Of a stretch of 16,415 bases of DNA, positions 3,201-15,503 are shown one piece after another. The DNA lies in contig JAUXFG010000085.1 of the NCBI GenBank assembly GCA_030620115.1, forward strand, positions 1 to 16,415, in the 5' to 3' direction. Each line of letters opens with the position of its first letter. Within the stretch, counting starts at the first letter, position 1. A program made the position numbers and the translations under genes. The DNA comes from Candidatus Fermentibacterota bacterium (GTDB lineage: Bacteria > JAFGKV01). Under the pieces are notes generated by a model. It had not been told where the DNA came from. It saw only the letters and a program-made list of their open reading frames with translations, and made no database searches.

Positions 3201-3219
3201 GAGCATCCTCCTTCCCTTT

Positions 3220-3420
3220 AACCCGGACTTCTCATCCCGCGTCCGCCGCGGGACTGCAGTCCCGCGTCTGACGCGGGACAGAGGATACGCCTTCGGGCTT
3301 CGCCACGGCGGAGCCAGGCTACGCCCTGACAGAGCCGGGGTCTTCAGTCGCAAGCCTCGCATTCAGAATCCCGCGTCCGACGCGGGACTTCGCTTTGAAA
3401 GCCGGTGAGAAATCCGGGTT
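3220..3420 (+). mobile_element. MITE-like 201-bp palindromic element, copy 1
   Basis: The ends AACCCGGACTTCTCA and TGAGAAATCCGGGTT form 15-bp terminal inverted repeats with one mismatch. Inside are three TCCCGCGTC..GACGCGGGA-type hairpins (near 3236, 3258 and 3369) and a 60-bp core (3283-3342) identical to 4280-4339. There is no transposase, so any mobility would be non-autonomous. It ends 7 bp upstream of the ribosome-binding site of the membrane-protein gene, so it may be part of that gene's leader. Confidence 0.75.
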
Positions 3421-3570
3421 GTGCCCTTGGAGAGCGTCGCCAGAAATCATCCGCACATGGGACTATCACTGAATTAATGTTTGATGATGTTTTATGCAAT
3501 ATAAAACGGTTTGTTAGTTTTTGATGCAGGTTATCTGGAGTCCGGATTGCTACGGATGATGCCGAATTAT
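3421..3570. promoter_or_regulatory. AT-rich block with 7-bp inverted repeat, possible promoter region
   Basis: About 3465-3535 is strikingly AT-rich compared with its surroundings. It contains GTTTTAT-GCAAT-ATAAAAC at 3489-3507, a perfect 7-bp inverted repeat. This would suit a promoter for the leftward membrane-protein operon, which would then carry the 201-bp element in its 5' leader. I could not find a convincing -35/-10 pair. Confidence 0.35.
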
Positions 3571-3572
3571 CG

Positions 3573-3591
3573 GAGGGGCATCGCCCCCCTC
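3573..3591 (-). terminator. GGGGC/GCCCC hairpin at the end of the Cys-rich gene
   Basis: GGGGC (3575-3579) and GCCCC (3583-3587) form a stem with a 3-nt loop, flanked by more G/C pairing, and overlap the stop codon of the leftward gene. No T-run follows on the minus strand, so a terminator role is uncertain. Confidence 0.35.
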
Positions 3592-4000
3592 AGGCCAAAT
3601 GAGACTCGTCCTGGCACCTGAATAGGTAGAAGGCATCGTCGACGTTCTCGAATTCCAATGAGTGCCGCTTGCATCCATTGCGCGTACAGAGCTTGATGGC
3701 GCCGCCTACCTGGAGTTGCAGCGCCACCAGCGGAGCGTGGCACTCGCAGATCTGAGACACTGGGAAGGGTTCGTGACAGTGGGGACAAGAGAGATCGGCG
3801 ATGCTGCCCTCTATGTTTTCAACTCCATGAAAAGCCTTGGCATAGCTGCCGTAGACCTGGCTCAAGAACACCATCCCCGTCTTGCCAGCAATATTCGCTG
3901 CAAGGGCAATCGACGGGAGGTTGTCGATTGTCTCATCGGGATTCATGAGGGATTTCCCACAGGACGAGCATTTAAGCGGGATATTGATCTGATTACTCAT
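3590..4000 (-). CDS. Small Cys-rich zinc-binding-like protein
   Basis: A 136-aa protein of no family that I recognise. Cys pairs suggest at least two metal sites: Cys11/Cys14 (CSSC), Cys72/Cys75 (CPHC), Cys85/Cys87/His88 (CECH), Cys105/Cys110 and Cys129. Between the first and second clusters is a non-polar stretch (IALAANIAGKTGMVFLSQVYG, about 31-51) that may be an amphipathic helix. The ATG at 4000 is preferred because AAAAGGGGA lies about 8 nt upstream. The gene stands alone and is bracketed by direct copies of a ~200-bp element, about 170 bp downstream and 200 bp upstream. Zinc binding is inferred; the role is unknown. Confidence 0.75.
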   Translation of the reverse strand: MSNQINIPLKCSSCGKSLMNPDETIDNLPSIALAANIAGKTGMVFLSQVYGSYAKAFHGVENIEGSIADLSCPHCHEPFPVSQICECHAPLVALQLQVGGAIKLCTRNGCKRHSLEFENVDDAFYLFRCQDESHLA

Positions 4001-4045
4001 AAGGCGTCCCCTTTTGCTCATGACACATGGACCAGCGGACATCGT

Positions 4046-4073
4046 ATATTACAGCTATCACAGCGATGGTCAC
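4046..4073 (-). promoter_or_regulatory. Candidate promoter of the Cys-rich gene
   Basis: On the minus strand, GTGACC (4068-4073) and TAATAT (4046-4051) are spaced by 16 bp, each matching 4 of 6 consensus bases. The start codon would follow about 40 nt after the transcription start. Confidence 0.35.
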
Positions 4074-4078
4074 CATCG
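4064..4078. promoter_or_regulatory. Perfect palindrome over the candidate -35 box
   Basis: CGATGGT-C-ACCATCG is a perfect 7-bp inverted repeat around one base. It covers the proposed -35 of the Cys-rich gene, as an operator would. Its binding partner is unknown. Confidence 0.35.
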
Positions 4079-4197
4079 GCTTGTCTCACAGGGCGCCTGG
4101 CTCGAAGATACAGGTGTCCTCTGCGGATGGCGCAATACACCGAGCCATCACCGCTTACAGGACAATTTGCTTCCTTCGGCCTGTGAATGTCAACTGG

Positions 4198-4408
4198 CCC
4201 GCACTTCTCATCCCGCGTCCGCCGCGGGACTGCAGCGTTGCATTTGGCCCTGCCTGCTGTCCGCCGGCTGGCGGACAGGGGATACGCCTTCGGGCTTCGC
4301 CACGGCGGAGCCAGGCTACGCCCTGACAGAGCCGGGGTCATCAGTCGCAAGCCTTGCAGCCACAGCCAACTATACCGCTTCGCGACGAAAGCCGGTGAGA
4401 AGTGCGGG
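4198..4408 (+). mobile_element. MITE-like 211-bp palindromic element, copy 2
   Basis: Same orientation as 3220-3420. The terminal repeats CCCGCACTTCTCA and TGAGAAGTGCGGG are perfect. The base that differs from copy 1 (GGA to GCA at the left end) is matched by the paired base at the right end (TCC to TGC). The 60-bp core (4280-4339) is identical to copy 1. The middle differs: copy 1 has a second CCCGCG hairpin, while here a TGTCCGCCGGCTGGCGGACA hairpin (4258-4277) lies in that place. Confidence 0.75.
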
Positions 4409-4714
4409 TTAGGGGGCTGGAGTTCCCAGGAATGCAACTACTCGAAAATGCAGGCGATATCGAGAAAATCCGCAACTTCTCTCAAGATCGACGAAGCTCC
4501 CGACAAGGCTCCCGACGAAGTTTCAGGATGGGATGGCAGGCAGGGAAGATGTCCATTCCGATTTGGCATGTTATTGGCGAGATTCCTGAAACCCTTGAAT
4601 GGTTACGTCGTCTTTTCGTCTTCAGATTCAAGATTACAGATTCTTCAAGCAATTCCCCTTCGTCTTGGTCTTTCATTCAAGCAATCCAGCAATTCAGCAT
4701 TCACCCAATTCCCC
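4409..4714. repeat. Gene-free spacer with repeat fragments
   Basis: No gene supported. It holds GGGATGGCAGGCAGGGA (4528-4544), shared with 10397-10413, preceded by CTCCCGAC/GACGAAG motifs also found near 10440-10540 but in a different order. At 4623-4643 is an inverted fragment of the AATCTGTAATCT block of the long repeat at 1-280. Confidence 0.5.
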
Positions 4715-7558: not shown

Positions 7559-7693
7559 GCGGATGAATTCACGGTGGCGATGCGATGTCGCACGGGCTTA
7601 TTGAGAAGTTGTGTTCGCGCCGGCTCTGGTCGCTGCTCACCAACAGGAGGCGGGATTGGTGAGGAATGCGGGCTCGGGAAGGGCTGGTGCAGT

Positions 7694-9220: not shown

Positions 9221-9420
9221 GGCCGATCCCCAGGTTCCCGAATCGGATTTCCGCCACCCATACATACGCCACACCAGAGCTGCTATCTCAATTTACAGCC
9301 CTTTCCTTTGTCTCGCAATGTCTTTCAAATTCCCAATTCCCCGATACCGAATCTCGGCGTTGAACCAGCAAGCATGGAGACGTTGGCTCGTGATTTCTCA
9401 ATAATCATGTACGATATCGA

Positions 9421-9499
9421 GAAATCCCCTCACCGAATCGTAGCCTCTATGAGCCAGAGGCCTCGATCCCCTTATGCAAAGGAGGGAGGATGTCGGATG
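9421..9499 (+). repeat. Direct repeat flanking tRNA-Arg, left copy
   Basis: About 78 bp that align with 10021-10098 with roughly a dozen differences and short gaps. The shared parts are AATCCCCTCACCGA, CGTAG.CTCTA.GAGCC.GAGGCCTC and GGATG. It lies about 200 bp upstream of the propeller gene. Both copies contain small hairpins. Between 9221 and 9420, and from 9500 to 9658, I see no gene or clear signal. Confidence 0.7.
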
Positions 9500-9658
9500 C
9501 ATGGGCTCATTGAGATGCTACAGGAATGTGGGCGGAGAAGCACTCGGCCAACAGAAGCAGGACTGCACGAGGCGCAAATCCGCGGTCTTGGATGTCAGAG
9601 AGTGCAGAGAACACCAAGCCGATCCTTGCTCCCCACATCGCGCGAAAGAAGGGTTTCG

Positions 9659-9719
9659 ACCAGTAAACTATTTAAGTATATGCGCATAAACTTAAATAGT
9701 TCTGACTATCAGAACTGGT
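9659..9719. repeat. Nested AT-rich palindromes
   Basis: The 32-bp stretch 9668-9699 is a near-perfect palindrome (30 of 32): arms CTATTTAAGT / ACTTAAATAG around the palindromic core TATGCGCATA. It abuts a second hairpin, AGTTCTGA-CTA-TCAGAACT (9698-9716). ACCAGT (9659-9664) and ACTGGT (9714-9719) enclose both. The AT-rich base composition differs from everything around it. It could be an operator, a recombination site or a structured RNA; no gene is beside it to decide. Confidence 0.6.
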
Positions 9720-9820
9720 AATGGCGTGCCGGCGGAAAAGCGGTCAGGATGAGGCTCATGATAGAGCGATGTGGCCTGGTTCGGGATAAACTCACAGGCG
9801 GTCGGGTCTTGGGCAGTGGG

Positions 9821-9860
9821 CCAGATCAAAAGGGGGCCGCCGGGCCCCCTTTTGATCTGG
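9821..9860. terminator. 40-bp perfect palindrome, probable bidirectional terminator of tRNA-Arg
   Basis: The arms are 18 bp and perfect (CCAGATCAAAAGGGGGCC, loop of 4, then the complement). Read leftward from tRNA-Arg it gives A-tract, G/C-rich stem and CTTTT, a rho-independent terminator shape, and the reverse is equally true. The stem includes the CCA end of the tRNA (9858-9860). Confidence 0.75.
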
Positions 9861-9933
9861 CACGCCTGCCGCGACTCGAACGCGGAACCCTCGGATTAGA
9901 AGTCCGATGCTCTATCCATTGAGCTACAGGCGC
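9858..9933 (-). tRNA. tRNA-Arg(TCT)
   Basis: A 76-nt cloverleaf including an encoded CCA. The acceptor arm GCGCCTG pairs with CAGGCGT, with a G-U first pair and discriminator G. The D arm is GCTCAATGGATAGAGC, the anticodon stem-loop ATCGGACTTCTAATCCGA with TCT at 9898-9900, and the T arm CCGCGTTCGAGTCGCGG. Two GATAAC boxes lie upstream (near 9950-9965), and TGTCAG/CTGACA forms a small hairpin directly before the 5' end. Confidence 0.96.
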
Positions 9934-10020
9934 ATGTCAGTGATGGCTGACAGTTATCATGTTATCAGATCGCAACGTCGCAATAGGGTGATTTCTCACT
10001 AACCCCGTGCAATACTGGGG

Positions 10021-10098
10021 GAATCCCCTCACCGAGCCGTAGGCTCTACGAGCCGGAGGCCTCAATCCCCCTTTGCGAAAGGGGGAGGCGTTCGGATG
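10021..10098 (+). repeat. Direct repeat flanking tRNA-Arg, right copy
   Basis: Partner of 9421-9499. Here the second half folds as CCCCCTTT-GCG-AAAGGGGG, and GGCTC-TAC-GAGCC forms a first hairpin. It lies between tRNA-Pro and tRNA-Arg, so leftward transcripts from tRNA-Pro would cross it. Confidence 0.7.
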
Positions 10099-10162
10099 TC
10101 CAGATCCAGCAATCTCCCATGCCTGCCGTCAACTGCATTGCGAGGCAGGCGGATGAGGGATC

Positions 10163-10240
<78 letters not shown>

Positions 10241-10348: not shown

Positions 10349-10421
10349 GGGCACGGTCCGCCAGCTGGCGGATGCCCCTACCGATGGGCGTCCCTTGGGA
10401 TGGCAGGCAGGGACGCCTGCC
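10349..10421 (+). repeat. GGGCACGGTCCGCC hairpin plus GGCAGGC hairpin
   Basis: 10349-10380 (GGGCACGGTCCGCC-AGCT-GGCGGATGCCCC) is almost identical to 15284-15315 and folds into a hairpin. It is followed by GGCAGGC-AGGGAC-GCCTGCC (10402-10421), also present in part at about 341-355 and 4533-4544. From 10422 to 10546 only GACGA/TTCGGGA motifs occur; no gene is seen. Confidence 0.65.
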
Positions 10422-11164: not shown

Positions 11165-11476
11165 AGATGGGGGGATGGGGAAATGGGAGCGTTCAGCGTT
11201 CAGCGTTCACATGAAAGAAGGAGGAAAGAAGGAGAGATTCTTCGCTCCTTGCAGTCGCTCAGAATGACAGCAGTAGTGGACGGAAAGGCGCGGCCGGATG
11301 TGTGATTCAGAGGGAGCGGAGCGACTGAAGAATCTGGGGGGGAAAAGGGGGAGCTGAATGATGGAATGCTGGAATGGGGGGAGAATCTAGAATCTGTCAA
11401 TTTGGAATCTGTAATCTGTGGGATGGGATTGGGGGATGAGGATTGAACATCGAACATTCAACATCCAACGTCGAAG
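11165..11476. repeat. Long dispersed intergenic repeat, copy 2
   Basis: Collinear with 1-280: three AGCGTTC heptamers (11188-11208), an inverted repeat (11235-11269 against 11301-11335; the right arm is decayed at TGTGATTCAG), then the GAATCTGTAATCTG and ATTCAACAT blocks. It fills nearly the whole gap between rdgB and the GerMN gene. Nothing else is seen up to 11534. Confidence 0.8.
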
Positions 11477-11534
11477 TTTTGGGGAAGGTGTTGAGCTGGG
11501 AGGCAGATGAGGAGGAATGGGGGATTTGGGGTGA

Positions 11535-15283: not shown

Positions 15284-15316
15284 GGGCACGGTCCGCCGGC
15301 TGGCGGATGCCCCTAC
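15284..15316 (+). repeat. GGGCACGGTCCGCC hairpin repeat
   Basis: Matches 10349-10381 with one change in the loop (AGCT to GGCT). It folds as CCGCC-RGCT-GGCGG inside GGGCA/TGCCC. It sits in the 346-bp gap between two divergent secreted-protein genes. I could not place promoters with confidence in the rest of this gap (15317-15490). Confidence 0.65.
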
Positions 15317-15503
15317 TGAAGACGGGCCAGGATTCCTTCTCGATACGATGATCGATCCTTGATTTGTTTGGCCGCTTGCGATAGCTTCTTGCCACATTTT
15401 GTTACAAGGCTCATCAAGTGACGGGTCTTGTACCTGACTCAAACTCGCGTGGCCTCATGATCACGCATGATGTCCCCATATGGACAGAAAAGGGAGGACC
15501 TAA

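Follow-up and report, generated by a model that had tools for sequence, protein, structure and literature searches.

Chunjie, Correia/NEMIS and ERIC are bacterial MITEs, a class reviewed in PMC10969869; they are short, non-coding and palindromic, with inverted repeats and many intergenic copies. The elements described here share these features; in contrast to those MITEs, which were described in one or a few related taxa, one fold here spans many phyla and end types. The elements also resemble the IS1380-family insertion sequences (NF033539, PF13701), with which they share the terminal repeats CCCGCATTTCTCACC with YTAR flanks, a complete IS1380 element having the same 16 bases at each of its ends. 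Unlike these insertion sequences, they are 48–434 bp long and lack a transposase gene, in the place of which stands a structured hairpin. With the structured RNA families of Rfam 15 they have in common conserved stems with compensatory changes, conserved loops and a strand preference, whereas no family matched them at the sampled loci, either at the gathering threshold or at E ≤ 1, and the elements are known as DNA sequence and predicted fold. Among the papers searched, none joined IS1380 and YTAR, and those with the element end sequences dealt with other subjects. Two representative elements had no match in a plasmid collection.

Two elements in the window and their family in the genome

The window, that is, the whole stretch of 16,415 nucleotides analysed, had been noted in a preliminary description to hold two MITE-like elements with inverted ends. 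Both are present, copy 1 at 3222–3418 (197 bp) and copy 2 at 4198–4408 (211 bp), with the model strand on the minus strand in each case, and such ends are far beyond chance: the exact end TGAGAARTSCGGG occurred 348 times in the 4.1-Mb genome and 0 times in a reversed control. On the plus strand, the terminal inverted repeats of copy 1 read CCCGGACTTCTCA (3222–3234) and TGAGAAATCCGGG (3406–3418), and those of copy 2 read CCCGCACTTCTCA (4198–4210) and TGAGAAGTGCGGG (4396–4408). Covariance model R1 gave scores of 36.2 bits (E = 3e-8) for copy 1 and 68.1 bits (E = 3e-16) for copy 2, the latter with a fold z of −4.3. The flanks of copy 1 are TTAA, a YTAR target, at 3218–3221 and TTGT at 3419–3422, and those of copy 2 are CTGG at 4194–4197 and TTAG at 4409–4412, a decayed duplication in both cases. 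In agreement with the preliminary description, a Pfam scan of ten ORFs of the window found no transposase.

When set against an intact 177-bp copy, both window copies are mosaic derivatives of a 177-bp hairpin, in which small palindromes (TCCCGCGTCNGACGCGGGA, GTCCGCCRGCTGGCGGAC) and a hairpin-forming block of about 60 bp have taken the place of parts of the stem. In copy 1, the block (3283–3342), which is the 60-bp core of the preliminary description, replaces the apical part of the ancestral hairpin, two small palindromes of the TCCCGCGTC..GACGCGGGA type (3235–3278) replace stem sequence, and a third lies at 3369–3389. Copy 2 carries the same block at 4280–4339 and a small palindrome, GTCCGCCGGCTGGCGGAC, at 4259–4276. 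An interior stretch of 86 nt is 97% identical between the two copies, and the 60-bp block recurs in many other copies of the same genome. Across the window, small palindromes were located at 3235–3278, 3369–3389, 4211–4229, 4259–4276, 10349–10384 and 15284–15319; TCCCGCGTCNGACGCGGGA and GTCCGCCRGCTGGCGGAC swap for one another at matching places of the hairpin and are also present outside hairpins.

Several further features of the window were observed. The likely start codon of a membrane-protein gene on the minus strand lies at 3206, with copy 1 ending about 15 bp upstream of it and the model strand being that of the gene. The copy adjoins (3204–3222) the Shine-Dalgarno-like sequence of this gene and would therefore be part of the 5' leader if transcribed. 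A single degenerate element end, GGTGAGGAATGCGGG, followed by CTCG, lies at 7658–7672, and no partner was found for it. Four repeat families (D2, D5, D6 and D8) are common to two intergenic regions 11 kb apart (1–281 and 11165–11477). The region 9390–10240 contains two minus-strand tRNA genes (9861–9933 and 10167–10240), the flanking sequence of which is duplicated (D4, D9), together with an inverted repeat of 41 nt at 9798–9883.

The search for further copies proposed in the preliminary description revealed a large family, in which copy 2 matched 54 similar places. A catalogue over 1.48 Mb of the genome, mostly contigs already known to carry copies, comprised 432 ends, where the reversed control gave 39. 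Its 115 unique inward end pairs measured 48–434 bp, with a length peak at 177 bp, and one further pair measured 738 bp. The covariance model gave at least 135 matches at E ≤ 0.001 in this genome among the 138 candidates scored. Agreement between direct repeats was clearly above shuffles at a length of 4 only (z = 3.65; 18 of 94 exact), and the flanks on both sides were YTAR, so that the ends read YTAR-CCCGNAYTTCTCACC with a 4-bp YTAR target site. Exact 4-bp repeats in other genomes (20 of 53) were hardly above chance because CTAG dominates both flanks. A strong intergenic bias was observed, as 45 of 87 elements had no ORF overlap, compared with 10% of random placements, with a simple ORF caller. 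The copies in this genome are numerous, diverged and decayed. The window elements are thus worn members of a high-copy, non-autonomous miniature transposon family with IS1380-type ends, and the label MITE-like was rightly applied: they are short and non-coding, with terminal inverted repeats, many copies and 4-bp target-site duplications, and an insertion sequence with identical ends exists elsewhere.

Element ends and candidate transposases

A transposase with the same ends, which the preliminary description had suggested looking for, was found in another genome and not in this one. One gammaproteobacterial genome rich in such elements encodes a complete IS1380 transposase of 485 aa (contig L328; 405.9 bits with NF033539, cut-off 180), flanked on both sides by CTAGCCCGCATTTCTCACC, the right end lying at the contig edge. 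A second IS1380 element, on a viral contig, has the close variant CTAACCCGGATATTTCA at its ends. Since these two IS1380 transposases are bounded by identical or close-variant ends, the assignment of the ends to the IS1380 type is well supported. The extended end GGTGAGAARTNCGGGYTAR occurred in at least 115 stretches in named genomes (Gammaproteobacteria, Acidobacteria, Planctomycetota, Neomarinimicrobiota and others) and was not found in any of 59 other genomes sampled, among which were two from the same family.

No IS1380 transposase above the cut-off was detected in this genome, the assembly of which is fragmented; the best match to PF13701 reached 18.3 bits against a cut-off of 34.7. A resident transposase in the same genome is not a defining feature of a MITE. 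An autonomous copy inside this genome was considered and rejected, as the ORFs inspected between end pairs 0.7–3.7 kb apart included no recognisable transposase. Another insertion sequence of this genome, with the ends TAAATCTC ... GAGATTTA, and elsewhere a solo palindrome resembling those ends were observed (L061:1320–2790, L072:1251–1292).

The elements might instead have been moved by a transposase that does reside in this genome, of the IS5 type or of the REP-associated Y1 type, as eight DDE_Tnp_1 and four Y1 loci are present and IS5-type transposases also favour YTAR targets. However, none of the eight DDE_Tnp_1 loci was bounded by a pair of element ends, as would be expected of an IS5-type MITE, nor was any of the four Y1 loci, as would be expected of a REP/REPIN (RAYT) system, and the element ends match IS1380 elements exactly. 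This explanation is already disfavoured, and we regard it as very improbable.

Paired changes and the intact hairpin across genomes

The preliminary description had held that the left arms of the two copies differ and that the right arms differ in the matching way. At arm position 5, the G/C difference between copies 1 and 2 is indeed matched on both sides; but the right arms differ at two positions, 5 and 7, and the C/T change at position 7 is unpaired. In copy 1, this position is C in the left arm and T in the right one, so that the matching of the arms is only partial. Across the family, the two ends were strongly associated at position 5, C going with C (OR 22.6, p = 4e-9); the pairs were C/C in 21, C with another base in 15 and neither C in 58 in this genome, and C/C in 34 and G/G in 10, with few mixed pairs, in other genomes. 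No end-to-end association was observed at position 7 in this genome (p = 0.6), and covariation at every arm position was rejected, the association being clear at position 5 only. It follows that variation of the ends without paired change, named beforehand as evidence against the proposal, was found for position 7 and not for position 5. Position 5 marks sub-families with matching ends, which is expected from transposase binding and from hairpin pairing alike. The further suggestion that end pairing is selected therefore stood in part: the paired change at position 5 holds and is seen again in other genomes, whereas one transposase recognising both ends would give the same result and position 7 is unpaired.

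The stronger evidence for pairing lies in the whole ancestral hairpin of 176–177 bp, beyond what had been seen in the window, with stems that covary across phyla and a strand preference. This intact form is one end-to-end hairpin with conserved internal loops and was found in Gammaproteobacteria, Acidobacteriota, Gemmatimonadota, Actinomycetota, Neomarinimicrobiota and others. Copies of 176–177 bp that fold end to end occur in Sedimenticola (L270), Holophagae (L284), Actinomycetota (L315), Acidobacteriota (L229), Gemmatimonadetes (L211) and this genome; their internal loops are closely alike, most have the apical stem GGCGTA...TACGTCGAG, and the fold z ranged from −7.6 to −11 in the four tested. 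The culturable Acanthopleuribacter pedis KCTC 12899 also carries copies (L213, L231).

In a sequence-only alignment of 24 copies, 29 of the 47 consensus pairs showed double changes. The observed covariation was reached by 0 of 500 shuffles, and slid structures gave 0.08–0.11 compared with 0.42 observed. A covariation test of the aligned copies, as had been proposed, was carried out with our own re-implementation of the R-scape idea (a tree-based null). In the two-set test on this alignment, 9 of 47 pairs were significant at E ≤ 0.05, among them the pair 5-180 that had first drawn attention (E = 0.0007), while testing all column pairs of the 24 sequences as one set gave nothing significant. With one copy per genome from 42 genomes, 31 of 47 pairs reached E ≤ 0.05 in an alignment that leans towards structure because it was fitted to the model. 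Both the two-set and the 42-genome tests thus found stems that covary between distant genomes, as expected of a new class of structured RNA.

Model matches at E ≤ 1e-4 were present in 23 of 289 other sampled genomes, each of a different family, the E-values being rough because the model calibration was short. The core itself was present in 22 of the 289 (about 8%), because the 57-nt match in one genome (G296) consists of ends only. Short matches of 40–60 nt (e.g., L410 and L371) are joined ends only and were excluded from the counts of the fold. Contamination during binning could account for single metagenome-assembled genomes at most, not for the whole pattern. Some copies (L395, L396, L398) have ends of a second type that is also IS1380-like (CTAGCCCGGATWATTCATGA and relatives), and several genomes carry only model positions of about 30–147 with unrelated outer arms, as complete hairpins in several copies that often lie beside tRNA genes. 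Core copies on such arms, e.g., GGCTGTTCAAAAA ... TTTTTCAACAGCC, were observed at L418–L428 and L434–L437, several directly adjoining tRNA genes. A second type of hairpin element was observed at L262:688–847, L277:2378–2537, L258:7751–7909 and L300:970–1129; it measures about 160 bp, its ends are IS1380-like and its conserved core (GCGATGATYGCRCAGAGA ... GGATCAAGCRAGGGC) is a different one.

Strand preference and proposed selection on the hairpin

In each of the 24 aligned copies, the homologous strand gave a better fold than the complementary strand, by a mean of about −18 kcal/mol (consensus −49.8 vs −31.0), and the better-folding strand was the same in 31 of 33 copies outside the named loci of the training alignment. 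In the oriented arms of this genome, G-U exceeded A-C (195 vs 68), with arm position 7 leaning the opposite way, A-C over G-U. Many of the invariant alignment columns sit in loops. No bias was observed towards the strand of neighbouring genes (24 vs 18) or, judged by GC skew, towards the leading or lagging strand (31 of 76, p = 0.14).

These observations bear on whether the elements are an ordinary IS1380 MITE family, the palindrome of which is kept by DNA-level processes only, through ends that fit the transposase and hairpin-templated repair between the arms, with a folded strand that has no function. Two-ended recognition alone gives the paired change at position 5, and the numerous, diverged and decayed copies and the lack of a gene-strand bias agree with this explanation; however, it does not predict the conserved unpaired loops, the strand preference in 24 of 24 and 31 of 33 copies or the same core on unrelated outer arms. 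We consider it unlikely, although it keeps appreciable weight. Simple arm-to-arm gene conversion, offered in the preliminary description as one source of the paired change, likewise fails to predict the conserved unpaired loops or the excess of G-U over A-C. Strand preference, invariant loops and G-U excess are not predicted by hairpin-templated repair or by mere two-ended recognition, and the better reading is that a single strand is selected in its folded state, most simply as RNA.

The selected form might also be a folded single DNA strand, in a cruciform or a hairpin exposed by replication, that is recognised by the transposase or by a host protein. A strand-specific fold can be read as single-stranded DNA too, and the lack of a gene-strand bias suits this possibility, but IS1380 transposases are DDE enzymes, which are expected to act on double-stranded ends, and the GC-skew result gives no leading- or lagging-strand bias. 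We judge selection on folded DNA to be improbable.

Taken together, the data favour, with a probability of about 0.6, IS1380-ended miniature elements whose hairpin is under selection as a folded strand, most likely RNA, and which were spread in trans by an IS1380 transposase. The transposase would since have been lost from this genome or be missing from the assembly. The hairpin RNA would most likely arise by read-through of neighbouring transcription and may act as a structured or double-stranded substrate of the RNase III type, altering the processing or stability of the message, and such processing might make insertions tolerable. The window copies are mosaics within this scheme, with palindromes and a hairpin block in place of stem parts, and the paired change at position 5 marks sub-families in which the two ends have to fit the transposase as well as pair with each other. 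We put forward tentatively, as a possibility of rather less than even weight, that the predicted fold represents a mobile structured RNA not previously described, with a hairpin core of about 120 nt in high copy, its strand, stems and loops conserved across many phyla, and with exchangeable outer arms (IS1380-type in most genomes seen, unrelated in others), so that selection would act on the fold as its unit and not on the transposon ends.

The covariance model and the copy sets are provided for direct tests of transcription, processing and mobility. Bacterial MITEs are usually treated as lineage-specific debris. A single hairpin fold that compensatory changes have preserved in many phyla, that is carried on more than one end type and that occurs in about 8% of the genomes sampled would imply that some MITEs have a function under selection, probably at the level of RNA.
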